Below are positions 29,683 through 47,620 of a stretch of 47,620 nt of DNA, piece by piece; position 1 is the first letter of the stretch; every line of letters begins with the position of its first letter. Below the pieces are notes generated by a model. It saw only the letters and a program-made list of their open reading frames with translations. It did no database searches and was not told the origin of the DNA. Made by a program: the position numbers and the translations under genes. The stretch covers positions 7,716 to 55,335 of the forward strand of contig JAJZKW010000005.1 of the NCBI GenBank assembly GCA_021803945.1. Direction: 5' to 3'. Source of the DNA: Microcaldota archaeon. GTDB lineage: Archaea > Micrarchaeota > Micrarchaeia > Micrarchaeales > CABMGC01.

Positions 29683-32526
29683 CTATCCGCATAGCTGCGA
29701 GGCCGTCATCCAGCCGCAACCGCTAACCCCCGAGCATACATTGCCTCCAAGGTCCTTGTTTGTGAGGCTTGTAGCGTTTCCATAACATCCAATGCCATTA
29801 AGAGACCCATATACCCTGTTGTCTTGCACATGCGCGAATTGCGAATTCACCATTACTATCCCTTCAGAAGCGTTGCTTATCGTGTTGTTTATGATATCTG
29901 CAGACAAGCTCCTGTTCATCACCAATCCAGTGCGCAACGCCGATATGGTGTTGTTTACCACATCTCCGTTGTTGAACCCGTACAGGTAGATGCCTGCAGA
30001 CGAATTCAATATCCTGTTGCCCCTCACAGTCGACATCTGCGCATTCACCATGTAGATCGAGCTATTAGATGAACTGGCAAAGGTATCGTTTATTATAGAT
30101 ATCTTAGATACAGGCACCTTAGAGACGACCACCACCGGATTCGTGAATCCTATCAGTATGCAGTTCTCCAATGTCACCCCGCTCGTGTTGTATGAGTACA
30201 GGAAAGTGCCTCCGTCCGTGGCAAATATCTTGTGTCCCTTGCAATTTATTGTAGTCCCGTCCGCGCTCTGGACTCTAGAGGAGCGTATGCTGAAGCAGGT
30301 AGCCCCATACGAGTATACCATGTCCTGCGCGAAGCTGATCGTATCAGGGCTTGTTGTAAGCTTGCATATGGCTTCGTTGTATACTGGGGAGACTTCTACA
30401 AGCCAATTGCAGCCTGCAGCAGTGACTCCATAGTTGATCCTTCCGTACTGTTCATACATTCCTGCCGAATCCGGAGCACACTGATATCCGAGGTTAGATA
30501 CAGAGTATATCGAATTGTTGTATATTGTGTTGTACCTTGAATTTGCGATGTAGAATCCATATTCCATAGAAGCGGCAGTGTTATTCAATATCTCATTATT
30601 GAATGACCCAGAGAGCACGAATGCGTACCCCAACGGGCCAAAATCCGCTTTGTTGTTGAGCAGTGCGCTGTCGTTTGTATTCACAATTGAATATGCCTGA
30701 TTGGAGAAATAAGTCACCAAATCGTTCGAAACTAGAGCATTCACGCTGCCGCTTACATTAACTCCATTGATCACAGACTTTATTGTCATAGACCTGATGG
30801 CAACTGACTTCGTGCCTTCCGCAACAACTCCGTCATGGAACCCGGATATGCGGCATCCCTTTACTGTCACATTCGTAACATTATCCATCTTGAACGCAGA
30901 TCCGACCCCCGTTATCGAGGCGATATTGCTGTTTCCAGTGCATTTTATAGACACATTGCTTGCATCCACCCTAAAGCACGATCCCCTTGCAACTACTCCG
31001 CCCGCCACGGCATAATGCCGGGATATCGTTATGTTGCCGCATTCAGTCAGTGGATATACGCTCAGCGCAATCGGCACCTTGATTGGACACGAACTGCCAG
31101 CCCAGTTGCAGTCGGTGTTCCCGCATTTAATGTCATTCGCGGATAGCGTCGCAGAGCCGTAGGTGCTTGCAGTGCAGTACAGGTCAACGTTCGAGTTTGC
31201 AGATGCAGTCCCATTATACAGGCGCACGTAGGTTGAATTGTCAAGAGTCACGCCATAGCTGTCGTTAGATGCCAGGAACCCGCTTATCGAATCATACTGC
31301 GTATTGTTAAAGTACACTCCATACTTATCCGATTGCGCACTTGAGTTTGCTAAGTTCCCATTGTCTGATCCCATGAGGTAGATTCCGTAGGCCCCTCCGC
31401 GCGCATTTATCGAGCTGAGCCCGAATTTTATCACATTCTGCAGGTAAATCCCATATGTATCGTTCTGCAGATCGCACCCTGATATCGTCACGTTGTAGAC
31501 TCCAGTCTCTGAAAGTATACCATACTTTGCATTCCTTATTGTGTGCCCATTGCACTGAAGCCGCACGTTAGATGCATTTATACTTAAGCAAGGAACTGCA
31601 GCGCTACCCAGAAGCGACGCATTCATGTATCCTGCAAAATTAAGGCCGGATTCCAGGCTGTACGACCCTCCCCTAGTTATGCTTCCGCACGAACTTATTC
31701 CCGGGCCGAGTATTATATCGGTTACAGGATATTGGATGTTGCTGCTGTAGCAGCGTGCGAAGTTGCAGAACCTGTTTTCATAGCATGATGAGTCGTTGAA
31801 CTTGTTGTTCGACGAGACGAAGCTCGCCCCAGCTCCGCATGCCATATCTGCATGGCTCTCCAGCAATACTGACTTAGAAATCCTGTTTCCCCGACTGCCT
31901 ATCAATGAAATGCCGTAATGCAAGTTATATTCAGCAGTGATAACCGACAAAGTGTTATTTCCTCCTCCGGTTATGTTTACGGCTCCGACATCATCCTTCA
32001 TACTGTCATTATAGAGCAGGTTCCGGCTTGAGCCGTAAAGGTAGATTCCTGCACCTATCATGCCGTCTGCCGAAACGTTTGATATTTTGTTGCTATCCGA
32101 TCCAATCAGATATATTCCATCTGAGAACTTGGATATGGCGACCTGACTTATGCTAACATTAGATTGTGATTCTATTGCAATCCCATACGATGCGGCACCT
32201 TGACCTCTAGACGATACATTTCCGGTTATTGAATGCCCGCCTCCAATCAGGGAAACGCCGCTTGCCTTCACATCTATGCACGCTCCGCTATTTGGCGTAT
32301 AGCTTAAGTTCGCATCCAAAGTATAGTTCCCAGGGCGCGATATAACAGTGCATGAGCGTATTTCGTATGCCTGTGCCTTAGCAGTACTATTGATTATTGC
32401 ACGCGGAGACGCGCTTATCCAGGCATAGTATAGCAGCCCGATAATCACCAACACAGCAGCAGCCGCAGCTACGTTCTTGGCGATATTGCCATGTGTTTTG
32501 TGCTGCGCATGCTGGTCCCTACCCAT
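29683..32526 (-). CDS. surface-anchored parallel beta-helix protein (NosD/CASH-like repeats)
   Basis: This protein of about 947 residues has one N-terminal membrane anchor (about residues 19-38) and a long extracellular region. Short repeats of the type DGIYLIGSDSNKISN, AGIYLYGSSRNLLYN, YGIYLQNV and YGVYFNNTQYDSIS recur throughout, the ladder of a right-handed beta-helix seen in NosD, pectate-lyase-like and adhesin proteins. There are several blocks, each opened by a Cys-containing segment (CTVISRPGNYTL, CGSITRGGSYSL, CGNITISRHYAV). Sequons are frequent. It starts 15 bases after the DUF3494 gene (a TTG at 32535 is the alternative start), so the two form an operon. Adhesion or glycan binding is inferred. 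Confidence 0.8.
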   Translation of the reverse strand: MGRDQHAQHKTHGNIAKNVAAAAAVLVIIGLLYYAWISASPRAIINSTAKAQAYEIRSCTVISRPGNYTLDANLSYTPNSGACIDVKASGVSLIGGGHSITGNVSSRGQGAASYGIAIESQSNVSISQVAISKFSDGIYLIGSDSNKISNVSADGMIGAGIYLYGSSRNLLYNDSMKDDVGAVNITGGGNNTLSVITAEYNLHYGISLIGSRGNRISKSVLLESHADMACGAGASFVSSNNKFNDSSCYENRFCNFARCYSSNIQYPVTDIILGPGISSCGSITRGGSYSLESGLNFAGYMNASLLGSAAVPCLSINASNVRLQCNGHTIRNAKYGILSETGVYNVTISGCDLQNDTYGIYLQNVIKFGLSSINARGGAYGIYLMGSDNGNLANSSAQSDKYGVYFNNTQYDSISGFLASNDSYGVTLDNSTYVRLYNGTASANSNVDLYCTASTYGSATLSANDIKCGNTDCNWAGSSCPIKVPIALSVYPLTECGNITISRHYAVAGGVVARGSCFRVDASNVSIKCTGNSNIASITGVGSAFKMDNVTNVTVKGCRISGFHDGVVAEGTKSVAIRSMTIKSVINGVNVSGSVNALVSNDLVTYFSNQAYSIVNTNDSALLNNKADFGPLGYAFVLSGSFNNEILNNTAASMEYGFYIANSRYNTIYNNSIYSVSNLGYQCAPDSAGMYEQYGRINYGVTAAGCNWLVEVSPVYNEAICKLTTSPDTISFAQDMVYSYGATCFSIRSSRVQSADGTTINCKGHKIFATDGGTFLYSYNTSGVTLENCILIGFTNPVVVVSKVPVSKISIINDTFASSSNSSIYMVNAQMSTVRGNRILNSSAGIYLYGFNNGDVVNNTISALRTGLVMNRSLSADIINNTISNASEGIVMVNSQFAHVQDNRVYGSLNGIGCYGNATSLTNKDLGGNVCSGVSGCGWMTASQLCG

Positions 32527-32541
32527 TTTTAGCAAGCCTGG

Positions 32542-34545
32542 CTACTTTTTCCCCTTCCTGCTCAGCGCGTAGCCTGCCGCCGCTATCACGACCACTGCCG
32601 CTACAAACCACGGGATCCACCCTCCTGATGAAGCAGGAGTGCTGGTGCCCGAAGTAGCTATCGTAGTTGGCTGTATTGGCGGGATTACGTTTATAACCTG
32701 TACAAGGCTGCATACTGCCGGTACTGTGCCTATATCGCAAGCCTGAAGCGAACGCGTGCCTGCTGAGAGCCCTGCCGCATTGAATGTAGTCAGCTTTACT
32801 CCAGTGGCCACTACTGTTCCATTGACCAGTATGACTACCGGCCCAGATGACGTAGTCGTAGCATTTACCGTGTCCAGCTGCCCCGTCGTAGTGACGTTCG
32901 ATTCCACCGTCAAGGTCACTAGTGTAGGTGCAGAATTAATGACGACAGGCACTTTAGAGACTACCGGATCTGCGCATATTGTCAATATTGCCGTGTCTAT
33001 TCTTGGCGTGTACGAGATGTTGTCAAGCACAACCGAGTACGTGTAATTATTTATGGCCGTAAGTGCCTGGAACTGCCCCGGTATCAGTGTGTAGCGCGTA
33101 TTATTCAAGTTGCCAAGAGTGGTCTTTACGCTGATCCCTACGTTATAAGGATTTATGAAGTTCATAGTCACTGTTATGTTATTGTCTCCGTTGAGCAGAA
33201 GCTTCTGCGTTCCGCTCTGCGTGAAGTTCAGTATCTCGAAGCATGCTCCATTGCCCTGGCTTACAAGCGTAGGCTTGTAGTTCCCTCCTGCTCCTGTGCT
33301 GCCTCCACCGCTCTGCTGCACTCCTCCTCCCCCTCCTCCTCCACTGTTTGTCGTGCCGCTTGTCGTAGTGGTTGGAGCTACAGTTGTTGTCGTTGATACC
33401 GGTACTGGCACCGATGCGCCTGTGCCTGTGGTTCCTGCAAATGAGACTGCAGCCTGCGCCAGCGCCAGGCCATCCAATGTTGCTCCGGTATTTATCGAAA
33501 TCGAAGTAGATGATAATACTACTCCTGAGAGCTGGGTAGTAGTTCCAAGAGTCACTTGGCCTGCAACAGCCCAGTAGATGTTTTGAGCTTGGCAGCCTCC
33601 TGTCAGAACGACTGTGGCGCCGGAGTCCATGGTAAATGCGCCTGACATGTCAAAGATGTACGTCGCAGCGGAGTTGCCTCCGCAATCAAGAGTGAGAGTA
33701 GTTCCGGTTGGTATGATAACAGTGGCTTCACTAAATGTATAAAGGCCAGGAGCGAGAGTCAGTCCTCCAAGGCTGCCTGCGCCCTTATCGACAACTGGTG
33801 CCGGAGCGGTTGTGCCTTGCGTTTCAGTATATGCATTGGTCATGTCTGTTGTAGCTGTGGTCAGCATGGCTGGAGTCTTGCCTGCTCCTGCGCCGGTGCC
33901 TGTCATGTCCGCACCATATATCCTTCCTGTTACAAGAGGTGATGTAGCGTATTCTCCAGTTGGATCATTCACTAATGGCATTGATCCAAAGCCGGTGATA
34001 CCGCTTGTAGCTGCCGGGCTGATCCCAATATTCCCATCAACTCCAGATCCTGCCGTCGAGATGGCAGTTTCTGCTAGAACCGTGAAATTTCCTGCATCGT
34101 AAAGGGCAGGCAGCGCCGGATAAGTGCCGCTTCCTGCTACTCCATTCTTATCCACTCCCGGATTCATGGCTACTCCGGATGAGACCACAGTGAGAGTTCC
34201 TGTATTAGTAGAAGTTATGCTGTTTCCCCCGGAATCCAAGACGAATACGTTAGCCGCCTGTGTATCCCCTGCCATCCCGTTTACCGTGTATGCGAAGCTG
34301 TTTGACGTTCCAGACTGGAATCCCACCTGTACATTAGTTATTGTATTGAATACCAAGAAGTTGTATGTTGTATATGTCCCGCTCCCTCCAGTCGCCACAG
34401 CTCCGAACGTCACTACGTTGCCTGCGACTTGATTGGAAGGCAGCACCGGGGATGAGGATATCGTGACCGACAGCGCCGTAGCGTTAACCGCTCCGCTTAG
34501 GAACAAAGAGAATAAGAGCAGGCCCAACAGATTCTTGTATAACAT
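32542..34545 (-). CDS. secreted DUF3494 (ice-binding-like) protein with C-terminal anchor
   Basis: The 667 residues have a signal peptide (about 1-21), then a short beta domain, then a DUF3494 domain (about 135-375). That domain shows AGNFTVLAETAISTAG, GNIGISPA, the GLTLAPGLYTF turn, LDCGGNSAATYIFDMSG and QNIYWAVAGQVTLGTTTQLSG. This family folds as an irregular beta-helix and includes ice-binding proteins, but many members are adhesins. A Thr/Gly-rich linker follows, then two beta domains, a Thr/Ser stretch, a hydrophobic segment (about 640-660) and SRKGKK. First gene of a two-gene surface operon. Confidence 0.85.
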   Translation of the reverse strand: MLYKNLLGLLLFSLFLSGAVNATALSVTISSSPVLPSNQVAGNVVTFGAVATGGSGTYTTYNFLVFNTITNVQVGFQSGTSNSFAYTVNGMAGDTQAANVFVLDSGGNSITSTNTGTLTVVSSGVAMNPGVDKNGVAGSGTYPALPALYDAGNFTVLAETAISTAGSGVDGNIGISPAATSGITGFGSMPLVNDPTGEYATSPLVTGRIYGADMTGTGAGAGKTPAMLTTATTDMTNAYTETQGTTAPAPVVDKGAGSLGGLTLAPGLYTFSEATVIIPTGTTLTLDCGGNSAATYIFDMSGAFTMDSGATVVLTGGCQAQNIYWAVAGQVTLGTTTQLSGVVLSSTSISINTGATLDGLALAQAAVSFAGTTGTGASVPVPVSTTTTVAPTTTTSGTTNSGGGGGGGVQQSGGGSTGAGGNYKPTLVSQGNGACFEILNFTQSGTQKLLLNGDNNITVTMNFINPYNVGISVKTTLGNLNNTRYTLIPGQFQALTAINNYTYSVVLDNISYTPRIDTAILTICADPVVSKVPVVINSAPTLVTLTVESNVTTTGQLDTVNATTTSSGPVVILVNGTVVATGVKLTTFNAAGLSAGTRSLQACDIGTVPAVCSLVQVINVIPPIQPTTIATSGTSTPASSGGWIPWFVAAVVVIAAAGYALSRKGKK

Positions 34546-35483: not shown

Positions 35484-36692
35484 TTATTTTATCATAGCGC
35501 CTGATTTCCCAGTTTTCCTCAATTCATCCAGCAAATCCTTTATATTAACTGCGCTTATCAGGCATCCCCCATATTTCGATATGCTGGGTCCGCCTTCGTA
35601 AAAAACCACGAATCCTTTTTTAGGTCTGTATGCCTCTATAAAAGATTGCAGGCTCCTTTCCACAAGATGCCTCTTATCCGCTTTAATCTTCACCTCTATC
35701 GGAATCGGCTCGCCGCCCCGTTGCACAACAAAATCCACTTCGGCATTGTTCTTAGACCGCCAATACCTCACCTCTTCCCCGTTTTTGACCAATTCCGAAA
35801 ACACGAAGTTTTCAAACAGTTTTCCTTTGGTTTCCGGGGGGATATGGAAAGAATTTGATATTGCACTGCGCATTCCAGTATCAACGAAATATAGCTTATG
35901 CTGCTTCACTATCTCTTTTAGTTTGTTCTTGTAAAAAGAAGGAACTCTGGCTATCAAGTAGCTTTTCTCCATCGCATCCATGTATTTCTTTACCGAGAGC
36001 GATGAGAGCCCTAGCGTACGCGATATCGCCTCGTATGATATCAGGCTTCCGACATTGTGAGAAAGATACTGTGCAAGTCGCTCTAGGGCCGCTCCATCCT
36101 CTATATTGAAGGTCCGTGCCACATCCTTGAGTATCATGAGTTGGTAAAGGTCCCTGAGTATAGATTCTTTGTTGGAATTATCGCTTTCCAACACGACCCT
36201 CGGGTATCCGCCATACATAATATGCCTATCTATTACTCTATTGAGGATGCTCGGTGTTACCTCCTTCTGGCCATCAGCATTAAGCACTTCGTTTATGGAG
36301 AACGGATAGAGTGTCAATACGGAGGCTCTTCCTACCAGCCACCCAAGCACTTCCTTGCCAAGCGCAACCTGTGATGATGACGTCACCCACAACCTTTTTC
36401 CTTTGTCTGCAAGATATTTCAGCTTGCTGCCAGGATCCTTCCCGTATTGTATTTCATCCAGCACAACAACATTATCGCCGGATAGGTACTGATTTTCGAA
36501 CCTCTTTATATCTACATCAAAAAGCTCTTTCACGTCAGGGTCATCAAAGCTTAAGTATTTCTCATAGTCATTCTTTGACTGCGCTTTAAGGAATGTAGTC
36601 TTGCCTGACTGCCTGGGCCCTACTACCACTACCACTCTGTTCAGTTTTGATGCCGTTAGGAAAGGCTGAGTTATCTCGCGTTCTACATACAT
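35484..36692 (-). CDS. AAA-type ATPase with DUF4143 domain
   Basis: About 402 residues: an N-terminal AAA_14 ATPase domain (Walker A GPRQSGKTT, Walker B VVVLDEIQ, sensor VTSSSQ), a winged-helix region (about 220-270), and a C-terminal DUF4143 nuclease-like domain with AEVDFVVQRG and PIEVKIK, the spacing of a PD-(D/E)xK site. Such ATPases are common, patchily distributed accessory genes in archaea; their role is not established. The ATG at 36698 is an alternative start; 36692 agrees with a TATA-like ggtataag (36724-36717) and leaderless reading. It lies within a 27-bp direct repeat pair, suggesting insertion. Confidence 0.88.
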   Translation of the reverse strand: MYVEREITQPFLTASKLNRVVVVVGPRQSGKTTFLKAQSKNDYEKYLSFDDPDVKELFDVDIKRFENQYLSGDNVVVLDEIQYGKDPGSKLKYLADKGKRLWVTSSSQVALGKEVLGWLVGRASVLTLYPFSINEVLNADGQKEVTPSILNRVIDRHIMYGGYPRVVLESDNSNKESILRDLYQLMILKDVARTFNIEDGAALERLAQYLSHNVGSLISYEAISRTLGLSSLSVKKYMDAMEKSYLIARVPSFYKNKLKEIVKQHKLYFVDTGMRSAISNSFHIPPETKGKLFENFVFSELVKNGEEVRYWRSKNNAEVDFVVQRGGEPIPIEVKIKADKRHLVERSLQSFIEAYRPKKGFVVFYEGGPSISKYGGCLISAVNIKDLLDELRKTGKSGAMIK

Positions 36693-36728
36693 GATCATTT
36701 AATGGAAAGCAACATACTTATACCTTTC

Positions 36729-36997: not shown

Positions 36998-37024
36998 AAA
37001 ACAAAGCCATGCCAGGGCTAGCCT
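36998..37024 (+). repeat. 27-bp direct repeat, copy 2
   Basis: Identical to 35455-35481. This copy overlaps the last codons and stop of the gene at 37018-37482. Confidence 0.7.
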
Positions 37025-37482
37025 CTCCTTGCGCCTTCGAGCGCTCCCTTCCGCCCGTCTTTCACATAAGCCACAAAAGCCGGGACTTTGGGATTGAACT
37101 CTGCATCAGCAAGCAAGCCTCCCTTCCTGACGTATGCATCAACTACAAATGCGAGCTCGTTCTCCCCAGGACAATGGAACGACTTGCTTCCCTCAGGCAG
37201 CGAATCGAACGTCTCCTTATCCACATCAGAAAATCTTCCGCCCTCCTCTATTTTCTTCCGCCCCTCGCTTGCAAGCCCCTTCTGCGCTGCACGGGCCCAT
37301 CCTTTCTTCCACAGCTCCTCCCTGAATTCTGGGCTTCTCCTGTACCACTCCGCGACCTCTTCAAAAGTGGCCTTCCTGTATCCTTTAGGCACTACGCTGT
37401 CCATCTTTGAAGCTGGAACTTTTTCCGATGACAGGTAAACACGCAACGCTCTCTGCCGTGCGTTTTTCAGCGCTTCCGCCAT
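37018..37482 (-). CDS. uncharacterised protein with GYRKATFEEV motif
   Basis: About 154 residues, hydrophilic, with no membrane segment. VPKGYRKATFEEVAEWYRRS matches in pattern the LPGFRLATLEEV of the gene at 38920-39471, so the two may be distant paralogues. The second half is beta-rich (ELAFVVDAYVRKGG, VPAFVAYVKDG). The frame opens at 37533, but a TATA-like tgatatataact (37522-37511) would place the transcript start near 37490, so ATG 37482 with ggtg just before it is preferred. Its last residues fall inside the 27-bp direct repeat. Confidence 0.6.
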   Translation of the reverse strand: MAEALKNARQRALRVYLSSEKVPASKMDSVVPKGYRKATFEEVAEWYRRSPEFREELWKKGWARAAQKGLASEGRKKIEEGGRFSDVDKETFDSLPEGSKSFHCPGENELAFVVDAYVRKGGLLADAEFNPKVPAFVAYVKDGRKGALEGARRG

Positions 37483-37548
37483 AATGGCACCAAGCATAAT
37501 GGATTTCTTGTGATATATAACTCCTCTCGCCATCCTTTTTAACCCCGT

Positions 37549-38919: not shown

Positions 38920-39471
38920 CTATTTCAATTCCGCTCCAGGCGATAGTATTAACTGCGGCGGAGGAAACGTTGCTGTACTATATAATCCAAATTCCTCCTT
39001 TTTACAATCTTCCGAGCCTTTTTCTATATAAGCAAAATGCAATTTTGTTTCTCTAGCCAAAACTGTATTTTCATACGCATCAATTTCCCCTTTTCCGTAG
39101 TTGATTAGCACATTTCTGCAAACCAACCCCAGCACAAATTCTCCTTGTCTGGTCCCTACAGCTACATTTAGATTCACAGGTACTCCGCTTATTTTGTCCG
39201 GTTTAGACTCAGGGATTTTTATCACAATCCACAAAGCCAACCCCTCTTGTAGCATCCTGTATACCAAATCTTTATTAGAAAGAACCTCTTCGAGCGTAGC
39301 TAAACGGAAGCCAGGTAGGGCCAAGCTCTTAGCTTCCTCAGCCGTTACCATATTTTCAGATACGAATACCGGTCTCGTTACCATCTTTTCAGATACGAAC
39401 ATCGGTCTCTTCTCTTTAGATAGAAATGACGGTCCAGGCGGTGGAATCACTCTTTCCGCAAATAGTGCCAT
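38920..39471 (-). CDS. uncharacterised protein with GFRLATLEEV motif
   Basis: The 183 residues begin with a Pro/Ser-rich segment, followed by two 11-residue repeats (RPMFVSEKMVT and RPVFVSENMVT) encoded by a 33-bp tandem duplication. Then comes LPGFRLATLEEV and a beta-rich C-terminal half (VNLNVAVGTRQGEFVLGLV). The motif is shared with the gene at 37018. A TATA-like tgatatataaag (39502-39491) gives leaderless transcription at ATG 39471. Third-position A/T is higher than in the neighbouring permease. No function is assigned. Confidence 0.65.
   Translation of the reverse strand: MALFAERVIPPPGPSFLSKEKRPMFVSEKMVTRPVFVSENMVTAEEAKSLALPGFRLATLEEVLSNKDLVYRMLQEGLALWIVIKIPESKPDKISGVPVNLNVAVGTRQGEFVLGLVCRNVLINYGKGEIDAYENTVLARETKLHFAYIEKGSEDCKKEEFGLYSTATFPPPQLILSPGAELK
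39344..39409 (-). repeat. 33-bp tandem duplication inside a coding region
   Basis: Units 39344-39376 and 39377-39409 differ at three of 33 positions and keep the reading frame. Confidence 0.75.
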
Positions 39472-45243: not shown

Positions 45244-46152
45244 CTATCCAAGCATGGAGATGCCCTGCTCAAGTCCTATCTTCGCCTTGAATCCGAGCAT
45301 CCTCCTGGCCTTGCTGGTATCCGCAAGGGTGGCCATCACATAGTTCTTCACAGGCATCTTGATGTATGTGGGCTTTATCCTCTTGCCAAGCTTCCTGTTG
45401 AGCGTCTCGACCATCTGGTTTATCGTATAGCTCTTGCCGTAGCCCACGTTGAAGACCTCGAATCCCCTTACCTTCGATGCTCTTACCAATGCATCCACCA
45501 CGTCATAGACGTGCACGAAGTCCCTCTTCTGCGTCCCATCCCCGTATATGACCGGGCTCTTGCCCTTCTTCATGAGCCACATGAATTGCGAGACAAGGTT
45601 TGCATATCCCTTCTTTGCCTCCTCGTGCGGCCCGTAGACCGAGAAGAATCTCATGGCGGCTATGTCGCATCCCTCCATCTTGTTGTAGAGCTCTGAGGCC
45701 CTCTCCGCGAATATCCTGCCCTCGGTGTAGTAATCCGTTATCCTGTAATCCGCATCCTCCCTGTGCGGAGGCTTCACTCCGTTGTATATGGAAGACGTCG
45801 ATGCGAAGACCATCGGTATGCCGGCTCCCTTGACGTATTCCAGTATCCTCACCATGCTGTTGGTCACCTCTCCGAGCAGCTTCGGGTTCTCCCTGTACAT
45901 GGGCGAGGCGGAGTACATGCCAAGGTGGTAGACGATGTCAGCATCGAACCGCATCCTTGCAAGCTCCCCGGAGTCCGCATTCCTGAACACCACGTTCCCT
46001 GACTTCATCGCTTCGGCAAGGTTGCCCTTAGACCCAGTAAACAGGTTGTCCACAACGCATACCTCGTTCTCCCTGCAGAGCCTCTCCACAAGGTTGCTGC
46101 CTATGAAGCCCGCTCCGCCCGTCACTATTATCTTCTTGTTCTTAATCTCCAT
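45244..46152 (-). CDS. NAD-dependent sugar-nucleotide epimerase-like SDR
   Basis: The 302 residues have GGAGFIGSNL (12-21), VDNLFTG, and ASTSSIYNG with the catalytic Ser/Thr. They also have the YTEGR segment in place of Tyr-x3-Lys, and GTQKRDFVHVYDVVDA. The family is the UDP-glucose/UDP-glucuronate 4-epimerase type. The usual catalytic Lys is Arg, so activity may be altered. The ATG lies about 50 bases from a TATA box inside a GCGCAT/ATGCGC palindrome. Together with the SDR at 41275 and the flippase at 47160 it suggests surface glycan synthesis. Confidence 0.85.
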   Translation of the reverse strand: MEIKNKKIIVTGGAGFIGSNLVERLCRENEVCVVDNLFTGSKGNLAEAMKSGNVVFRNADSGELARMRFDADIVYHLGMYSASPMYRENPKLLGEVTNSMVRILEYVKGAGIPMVFASTSSIYNGVKPPHREDADYRITDYYTEGRIFAERASELYNKMEGCDIAAMRFFSVYGPHEEAKKGYANLVSQFMWLMKKGKSPVIYGDGTQKRDFVHVYDVVDALVRASKVRGFEVFNVGYGKSYTINQMVETLNRKLGKRIKPTYIKMPVKNYVMATLADTSKARRMLGFKAKIGLEQGISMLG

Positions 46153-46216: not shown

Positions 46217-46344
46217 TCAAACTGCGCCTTTACACTGATAGTCCAGTATGGGCTGAAGATAAGTCCCGAGTTGATTTCCCCCGAGCTAAAAATCTGTTTT
46301 TATATGCTAAGCATCTTCGACGGAAAGGCTTTAAGACAACCAAC

Positions 46345-46355
46345 AATATATAAGG
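46345..46355 (+). promoter_or_regulatory. TATA box of the three-gene cassette
   Basis: AATATATAAGG lies about 45-55 bases before the ATG at 46400. Confidence 0.45.
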
Positions 46356-46399
46356 TTTGATACAGTATATGAATAGGTTATATCTCGAAACCGGTCTTT

Positions 46400-46582
46400 A
46401 TGGACGAAAAAGAAAAGTTTTTAAAGATATATTCGAACATACCTATGAATCTACGAGATGACATAGTGGCTGTCATCGATGGCAAACCAGTCACTTGGAA
46501 TGTGGCTTTCGTAGAAATTTCAAATAACAGTGAAATTGGCACAAAGATTTTGAATAAGCTTTTAGAAATGGAGATAATATGA
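46400..46582 (+). CDS. small protein of a three-gene cassette, gene 1
   Basis: The 60 residues (MDEKEKFLKIYSNIPMNLRDD...) are mixed helical and include ITWN-like PVTWNVAFVEISN and a C-terminal LNKLLEMEII helix. They have no membrane segment. The stop codon overlaps the next start by four bases (ATGA), so the two proteins are translationally coupled. Function is unknown; strict coupling suggests that the cassette's products work together. A/T-rich codons differ from the G/C-rich housekeeping genes, a sign of transfer. Confidence 0.65.
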   Translation: MDEKEKFLKIYSNIPMNLRDDIVAVIDGKPVTWNVAFVEISNNSEIGTKILNKLLEMEII

Positions 46583-46785
46583 TATCAGAGGATGTAAAGG
46601 AACTTGTAATTGCAAAGCTATCGGTGATGCCATCTGATAGAAAACTTGCAGTCGGCGCTTTCGGCGAGTTTACGAAAGAACAACTAATAAAGCATGTTGA
46701 AGATGATGACGATGTGGGCAGAAAGATCGCGGAAATTGAAATATCCTTTTTGAAAGCAGTAGCCCAAGGTAAGGTGTATGGTTAA
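46579..46785 (+). CDS. small acidic protein of a three-gene cassette, gene 2
   Basis: The 68 residues start MISEDVKELVIAKLSVMPSD, continue GAFGEFTKEQLIKHVEDDDD and end with an Ala/Lys helix (VGRKIAEIEISFLKAVAQG). It is acidic and probably all-helical after a short strand. Its end overlaps the start of gene 3 by eight bases. This FTKEQLI...VGRKI pattern looks like a conserved small-protein family, but I cannot name it. Confidence 0.65.
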   Translation: MISEDVKELVIAKLSVMPSDRKLAVGAFGEFTKEQLIKHVEDDDDVGRKIAEIEISFLKAVAQGKVYG

Positions 46786-47092
46786 AGGATACCTAATTAC
46801 CCTTCCCGACCACGATATAGTTACCCATTATTTATCTACTTATGCTAAACAGACTTTCAGCGTTGCCGAGGAGCATGATTTCAGAATAATACCGCTCGAA
46901 AATATGAAAGCTAACAGTAACGACTTCAGAAGTTACGTTACAAACAATAAAGTTGACTTTGTTGTATTCAATGGCCATGGAAATGGTACATCAGTAACTG
47001 GCCAATTAGATAAGCCGATAATAACAGCGGGAATAAACCACGAACTATTAACAATGCGAGTCGGAAATCTCATGCAGTCTACCGATTGGTAG
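46778..47092 (+). CDS. truncated caspase-like/C25-type peptidase-fold protein, gene 3
   Basis: The 104 residues begin MVKGYLITLPDHDIVTHYLS and contain VDFVVFNGHGNGTSVTGQ: a hydrophobic strand followed by His-Gly, the pattern of the catalytic His in clan CD peptidases (caspase, C25, CHAT). The second strand with the catalytic Cys is missing: the frame stops at 47090-47092. The following 68 bases, read in mixed frames, give pieces such as VYLAR and EIGPTGLSG that could be a decayed continuation (speculative). It is probably a broken enzyme. Confidence 0.55.
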   Translation: MVKGYLITLPDHDIVTHYLSTYAKQTFSVAEEHDFRIIPLENMKANSNDFRSYVTNNKVDFVVFNGHGNGTSVTGQLDKPIITAGINHELLTMRVGNLMQSTDW

Positions 47093-47159: not shown

Positions 47160-47620
47160 TCAGGCAGCGATGCCCGCATAGTCCACAAGCGCCCGCAGTA
47201 CTCCTCCGACAATGGGTATGCTCTTAGAAAGCTCCCTTATCGTGTTTATGTCCCCTATGTCCGCTCCCTTCAGCAGCGCAGCCAATGGCGGGTAGAGCAG
47301 TATGTAGACCATGGCCACCGATGCCAGGAGCACTGCGCCGCTCAGGAAGGGGTATAGCAGCAATGCAACGGCAGACACTATGGCGTTTGCGAGTATTAGC
47401 CTGGCAAACTTGTTCAGCCTCAGCCTTACGTCAAACATCTTCGAGAGCTCCCTTATGAATACCAGGTCGCCTATGACCGGGCTCAGTATGAATGCTATCA
47501 TCACGTACGCGTTTCCTCCGAAGTATGGCACAAGCGCAAGGAAGAGCGCAAGCACCACCAGGTTTATGGCGATATTGTACTTGAAGACCGTCCTGACCCT
47601 GTTCGCGCTTATCAGTATCG
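47160..47620 (-). CDS. polysaccharide flippase (Wzx/MATE-like), C-terminal part
   Basis: The frame is open to the window edge, so the N-terminus is missing. The visible 153 residues have four hydrophobic segments: NIAINLVVLALFLALVPYF, AYVMIAFILSPVIGDLVF, LILANAIVSAVALLLYPF and VAMVYILLYPPLAALL. A tail INTIRELSKSIPIVGGVLRAL follows. This is the C-terminal half of the polysaccharide-export family that flips lipid-linked sugars. Its neighbours, two sugar-nucleotide SDR genes on the same strand, support a role in surface glycan export. Confidence 0.75.
   Translation of the reverse strand, partial: ILISANRVRTVFKYNIAINLVVLALFLALVPYFGGNAYVMIAFILSPVIGDLVFIRELSKMFDVRLRLNKFARLILANAIVSAVALLLYPFLSGAVLLASVAMVYILLYPPLAALLKGADIGDINTIRELSKSIPIVGGVLRALVDYAGIAA

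Follow-up and report, generated by a model that had tools for sequence, protein, structure and literature searches.

What kind of genetic unit is formed by three short, overlapping genes near the end of an archaeal contig, the last of which carries only the first half of a peptidase-like domain? The window analysed here is a stretch of 47,620 nucleotides from a Microcaldota archaeon (NCBI GenBank assembly GCA_021803945.1, contig JAJZKW010000005.1). It represents the end of one contig of a source genome of 902 kb, which is assembled in 26 contigs and estimated to be 94% complete. The genes of this contig, among them those for a thermosome and for split archaeal RNA polymerase subunits, point to a small-genome archaeon, probably of the DPANN group. 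A sequence-only reading of the window had proposed a regulated protease or defence/toxin module with a truncated, apparently inactivated, caspase-like enzyme. What is known of caspase-type proteases with regulators of their own comes mostly from animals and from multicellular bacteria with large genomes.

Organization of the cassette

Three ORFs were located at positions 46400-47092 exactly as described in that reading: gene 1 (46400-46582, +, 60 aa), gene 2 (46579-46785, +, 68 aa) and gene 3 (46778-47092, +, 104 aa), the last encoding a putative truncated clan CD (C25/CHAT-like) peptidase with the GHG His half only. The overlap is 4 bases between genes 1 and 2, and 8 bases between genes 2 and 3. 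The leader upstream of gene 1 (46340-46399, +) is A/T-rich with the TATA-like stretches AATATATAAGG and GTTATATC, read directly from the letters, and is the probable promoter of the cassette. At many other loci, too, TTTAAA/TATATA-like boxes precede gene 1 by no more than about 60 bases, as seen by eye only and with no statistic attached.

The G+C content of the cassette is 38%, against 54% for the epimerase gene upstream and 53% downstream, in agreement with the A/T-richness noted before. Both flanking genes, named by reading of the sequence, are glycan-related: one (45244-46152, −) resembles NDP-sugar epimerases, and the other, present with its 3' end only (47160-47618, −), resembles flippases and is open at the contig end, 528 bases 3' of the cassette. 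This glycan setting, also part of the earlier description, appears to be incidental, since no neighbour is conserved between loci; no conserved fourth gene was common to more than two of them. The neighbours across loci were mostly housekeeping and accessory genes, with scattered matches to Fic, DUF4143 ATPases, type IIG restriction and DarG, all counted with no enrichment control.

Within the window, an ORF at 35484-36698 (−) encodes a protein of 404 aa that by eye is an AAA_14/DUF4143-type ATPase; these families recur beside the cassette elsewhere. Two other ORFs (37018-37533, − and 38920-39471, −) share the motif G-[YF]-R-x-A-T-x-E-E-V and may encode related proteins. The large proteins encoded at 32542-34545 (−) and 29683-32535 (−) we take to be of surface type, one resembling the ice-binding DUF3494 and the other a NosD-like right-handed beta-helix repeat.

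Conservation of the gene trio in the phylum

In the first search, in which gene 3 of the window was compared with 98 related genomes, a match was detected in 7 other genomes, with open frames of 211-241 codons. The gene 3 family was then searched as a profile against 295 genomes of the phylum, and ORFs were extracted around each match. The family was present in 27 of the 295 genomes, that of the window included. Genes 1 and 2 were located directly upstream of gene 3, on the same strand and in the same order, at all 26 testable loci, which belong to 25 genomes other than that of the window, a locus being testable when the contig extends far enough (one further locus starts inside gene 3). At 13 of these 26 loci, genes 1 and 2 again overlap by 4 bases. 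The recurrence of the trio is thus far beyond chance.

The sequence-only reading had looked to other genomes for longer forms of gene 3 with a Cys motif behind the same two upstream genes, and both were found, the relatives being about 210-218 aa in length with an invariant Cys. The opposite cases raised in that reading did not arise: Cys101 is invariant in the 22 full-length copies, so that no homologue without a Cys region was among them, and far from never co-occurring with gene 3, genes 1 and 2 accompany it at every testable locus.

In the reverse search of the same genomes, strong matches of gene 2 (E < 1e-20) were found only beside gene 3, and so were those of gene 1 except in two places, a deletion stub of gene 1 in G082 and a contig of G289 that ends inside gene 1. 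From these two-way searches, the trio is regarded as obligate in the genomes sampled from the phylum. Over 24 loci, the three genes show correlated protein distances (r = 0.67-0.79, with none of 2000 permutations reaching any of these values), and therefore they move as one.

Relationship of gene 3 to clan CD peptidases

Residues invariant among the 22 full-length copies of gene 3 are Asp13, Gly-His-Gly at 66-68 (including His67), Gly75, Cys101 and Gly-Tyr at 121-122. The window copy, 58% identical to that of G017 over residues 1-95, carries FVVFNGHG, and thus keeps the Gly-His-Gly motif. In the family, this motif comes after a hydrophobic strand, and Cys101 after the next such strand. None of the single sequences of gene 3 reaches a curated cut-off of Pfam or NCBIfam; weak Pfam matches were to C25 in 3 of the 22 members, to C14 in one and to CHAT in one, all of the same clan.

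By hhalign, the gene 3 profile matched a C25-like profile (P = 1.3e-6, probability 90.6) with GHG aligned on GHG and Cys on Cys, the comparison set consisting of 10 sequences from another phylum and including weak C25 matches that are perhaps CHAT- or C14-like. The score of this match was 50.6 while the column shuffles gave 20.6 or less (0 of 200 reached it). Family C14 was rejected as the closest relative, its profile giving P = 0.0016 only, and the C25/CHAT side being closer. Clan CD is defined by the order and spacing of the motifs and by the glycine beside the histidine, and gene 3 fits this definition (PMC4357240). The claim of a clan CD-like peptidase with a His motif was accordingly borne out, with His and Cys both in register. 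Judged from its profile, the gene 3 product is a distant clan CD peptidase of the C25/CHAT side with a minimal size of about 210 aa, and would be active as a protease. The invariant Asp13, located behind strand 1, is a weak hint that Arg or Lys would be preferred at P1. By eye, the gene 3 copies have no obvious signal peptide, membrane segment or prodomain.

Properties of the two small proteins

Pro15 and Trp33 are invariant in the family alignment of gene 1, and Gly26 and Gly47 in that of gene 2. The start codons of gene 1 are uncertain (L034, L036, L040 and others), several copies having non-conserved N-terminal extensions; the protein itself is probably shorter than the 62-111 aa annotated.

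Both proteins were modelled by AlphaFold2 from single sequences, with a pLDDT of 94.3 for the best model of gene 1 (50-63 for the other four) and 80.8 for gene 2. The two are predicted alike, in the order helix, beta-hairpin, helix and helix, both having one helix at 33-41 and another that starts at 45. Comparison of the gene 1 and gene 2 profiles aligned about 49 columns (P = 4e-4), the score of 19.95 exceeding the shuffle maximum of 18.98 (0 of 300 reached it) by a modest margin. Genes 1 and 2 thus appear to be distantly alike, with a shared predicted fold. Both are small polar proteins, and the predicted fold includes no hydrophobic helix of membrane length. Foldseek gave no match in PDB at E < 0.001 for either model, and searches of family libraries and PDB sequences with genes 1 and 2 gave nothing firm. 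The matches to DUF7713, aIF2-beta, S100A6 and prefoldin were weak, partial and inconsistent, and were taken as chance.

Proposed roles of the three proteins

In the mode of action that we propose, intact gene 3 would encode a cysteine peptidase of clan CD, located in the cytoplasm, that has a His-Cys dyad and consists of the catalytic domain alone, about 210 aa in length. Genes 1 and 2, expressed in close coupling with gene 3, would encode regulatory subunits serving this enzyme only. The small proteins would bind the peptidase and either hold it inactive or set the threshold of its activation. Stress or an invader would disturb the complex, and the freed protease would cleave cell proteins, leading to growth stop or death as in toxin-antitoxin or abortive-defence modules. 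The window copy, from which the 3' half of gene 3 has apparently been removed, would be unable to cut, with the two small proteins still intact.

The partners are proposed to keep the protease off because intact gene 3 was never seen without both of them, and both broken copies of gene 3 kept them. Besides the window copy, the broken copies include that of G244, in which gene 3 is split by a frameshift, possibly a sequencing error, and genes 1 and 2 are intact. Such asymmetry, seen in two cases, would be expected of a gene 3 that is harmful on its own.

Alternatively, genes 1 and 2 could be activators or substrate adaptors, gathering the peptidase or presenting its substrates in the manner of adaptor domains of bacterial conflict systems. 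This alternative agrees with the frequent activation of clan CD enzymes by dimerisation or ligand binding (PMC4357240) and with the description in bacteria of small effector-associated domains (EADs) recruiting caspase-like peptidases (PMC7159879), and it accounts equally well for the strict co-occurrence of the trio. We nevertheless consider it rather unlikely, since in none of the copies seen is a small protein fused to the peptidase, no EAD model of Pfam was matched (E up to 0.1) by any of the 20 members of gene 1 or the 26 of gene 2, and mere activators would be less expected to stay intact next to a broken gene 3, as genes 1 and 2 do in the window and G244. Inhibition by the small proteins is placed only modestly above activation, activators being expected to leave nearly the same genomic trace.

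Origin of the truncated copy in the window

The homology of gene 3 ends at about 47050-47064, and the codons up to the stop in the junction segment (47050-47092, +), encoding RVGNLMQSTDW, are unrelated to the family. Gene 3 of the window thus stops about 10 residues past the end of its alignment with the relatives, before their invariant Cys. The G+C content shifts from about 38% to over 50% about where the homology ends. The missing C-terminal half was absent from any nearby frame after 47064, indicating that the truncation is not due to a premature stop codon in a gene that is whole apart from it. Deletion of the 3' half of gene 3 is the simplest reading of this sequence. The copy thus appears to be inactivated, as had been claimed, with its catalytic Cys half lost and genes 1 and 2 intact.

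The same junction could arise by a chimeric join in the assembly, the gene 3 of the organism itself being intact. The closeness of the contig end to the cassette, and of contig ends to several other copies, would be in agreement with such an artefact; we hold it to be unlikely because a profile search of the source genome, 94% complete, detected no further fragment of gene 3, and because real losses exist in relatives. The single-contig genome G082 shares synteny with G263 (77-82% DNA identity) but lacks about 985 bp at this locus; the deletion begins inside gene 1 and ends shortly after gene 3, so that genes 2 and 3 are gone.

Mobility and loss of the module

Within the genus of the window's archaeon, the module was found in 2 of 12 genomes. 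The RNA polymerase protein of the source genome is 87% identical to that of its congener G006 and 72% to that of G017, whereas its gene 3 product is 40% identical to that of G006 and 58% to that of G017. This conflict indicates transfer, or else very uneven loss of old lineages. As judged from its distribution and these comparisons, the module is patchy, horizontally moving and sometimes deleted.

At two loci, gene 1 is immediately preceded, at a distance of about 45-70 bases, by a same-strand ORF that reads as a tyrosine recombinase (G006 contig C17, L013:6460-7416, −; G289 contig C100, L118:237-1430, +). The position of this ORF may be a clue to the way in which the module spreads.

A housekeeping or accessory protease, for instance in protein quality control or surface-protein maturation, that was lost in most small-genome archaeal lineages would fit the many housekeeping neighbours, the lack of a conserved defence neighbour and the absence of the module from the viral contigs, phages and plasmids searched, but is improbable for a unit that only 27 of the 295 sampled phylum genomes carry, that is repeatedly broken or deleted, whose tree incongruence indicates transfer, and whose proteins by eye have no signal peptide or membrane segment.

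The patchiness, mobility and decay of the module point instead to a role in conflict; as a counterpoint, its neighbours are mostly housekeeping genes, and defence-like genes are only scattered among them. On balance, the explanation that we favour, with confidence somewhat above even, is that the window carries a decayed copy of a self-contained, horizontally moving, regulated cysteine-protease module with two dedicated regulatory subunits, probably of a conflict or toxin-antitoxin-like kind. More tentatively, and with some doubt on our part, the trio could represent an undescribed archaeal conflict system, in which a minimal caspase-like protease is held by a paralogous pair of small proteins of a fold absent from PDB, and which spreads horizontally among small-genome archaea and is repeatedly inactivated at the protease.

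Similar proteins are suspected in other archaea. No usable match was found in Pfam or NCBIfam for the three proteins of the window, in PADLOC-DB for these or for two full-length gene 3 proteins, or in PHROGs for gene 3. A contig scan gave only a chance match, inside an unrelated ORF of Psychrobacter, and the module was likewise not found in 349 genomes of one other phylum, that of Psychrobacter. No account of the trio was found in the literature, the papers covered being open-licence ones only, which makes this absence weak evidence.

Comparison with known systems

In the C25 (gingipain-like) and CHAT enzymes, the His-Gly and Cys motifs follow one another as in gene 3 and are in register with those of gene 3, and the downstream KGNTVxEAVxKA stretch of gene 3 aligns with the C-terminal part of the C25-like enzymes. 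In contrast to these enzymes, gene 3 encodes a bare domain of about 210 aa, stays below the cut-offs, and is always accompanied by two small partner genes.

The nearest described arrangement is the two-gene system of EACC1 and a caspase in actinobacteria, proposed to be a regulated conflict unit (Kaur et al. 2020, PMC7159879). In both, a small 5' gene is coupled to a 3' gene for a peptidase of the caspase superfamily. EACC1 is, however, built around a conserved transmembrane helix, which is absent from the soluble-looking products of genes 1 and 2, and its peptidase is fused to variable effectors, whereas that of the trio is a lone domain in archaeal hosts. EADs are small non-enzymatic domains associated with caspase-like effectors, a few of them predicted to be mixed alpha/beta (PMC7159879, PMC8195603). 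The products of genes 1 and 2 resemble EADs in being small, apparently non-enzymatic and paired as related copies beside a caspase-like peptidase, but stand alone, while EADs occur as fusions with effectors or core NTPases.

With type II toxin-antitoxin systems, the likeness is one of working only: small genes first and a toxin-like enzyme last, overlapping, patchy and mobile. The trio differs from them in having two small proteins instead of one, and its presumed toxin would be a protease. A bare trio moving between archaeal genomes of about 1 Mb would provide a minimal model of a regulated caspase-like switch, and the unit of about 1.1 kb is small enough for direct testing in a laboratory strain.
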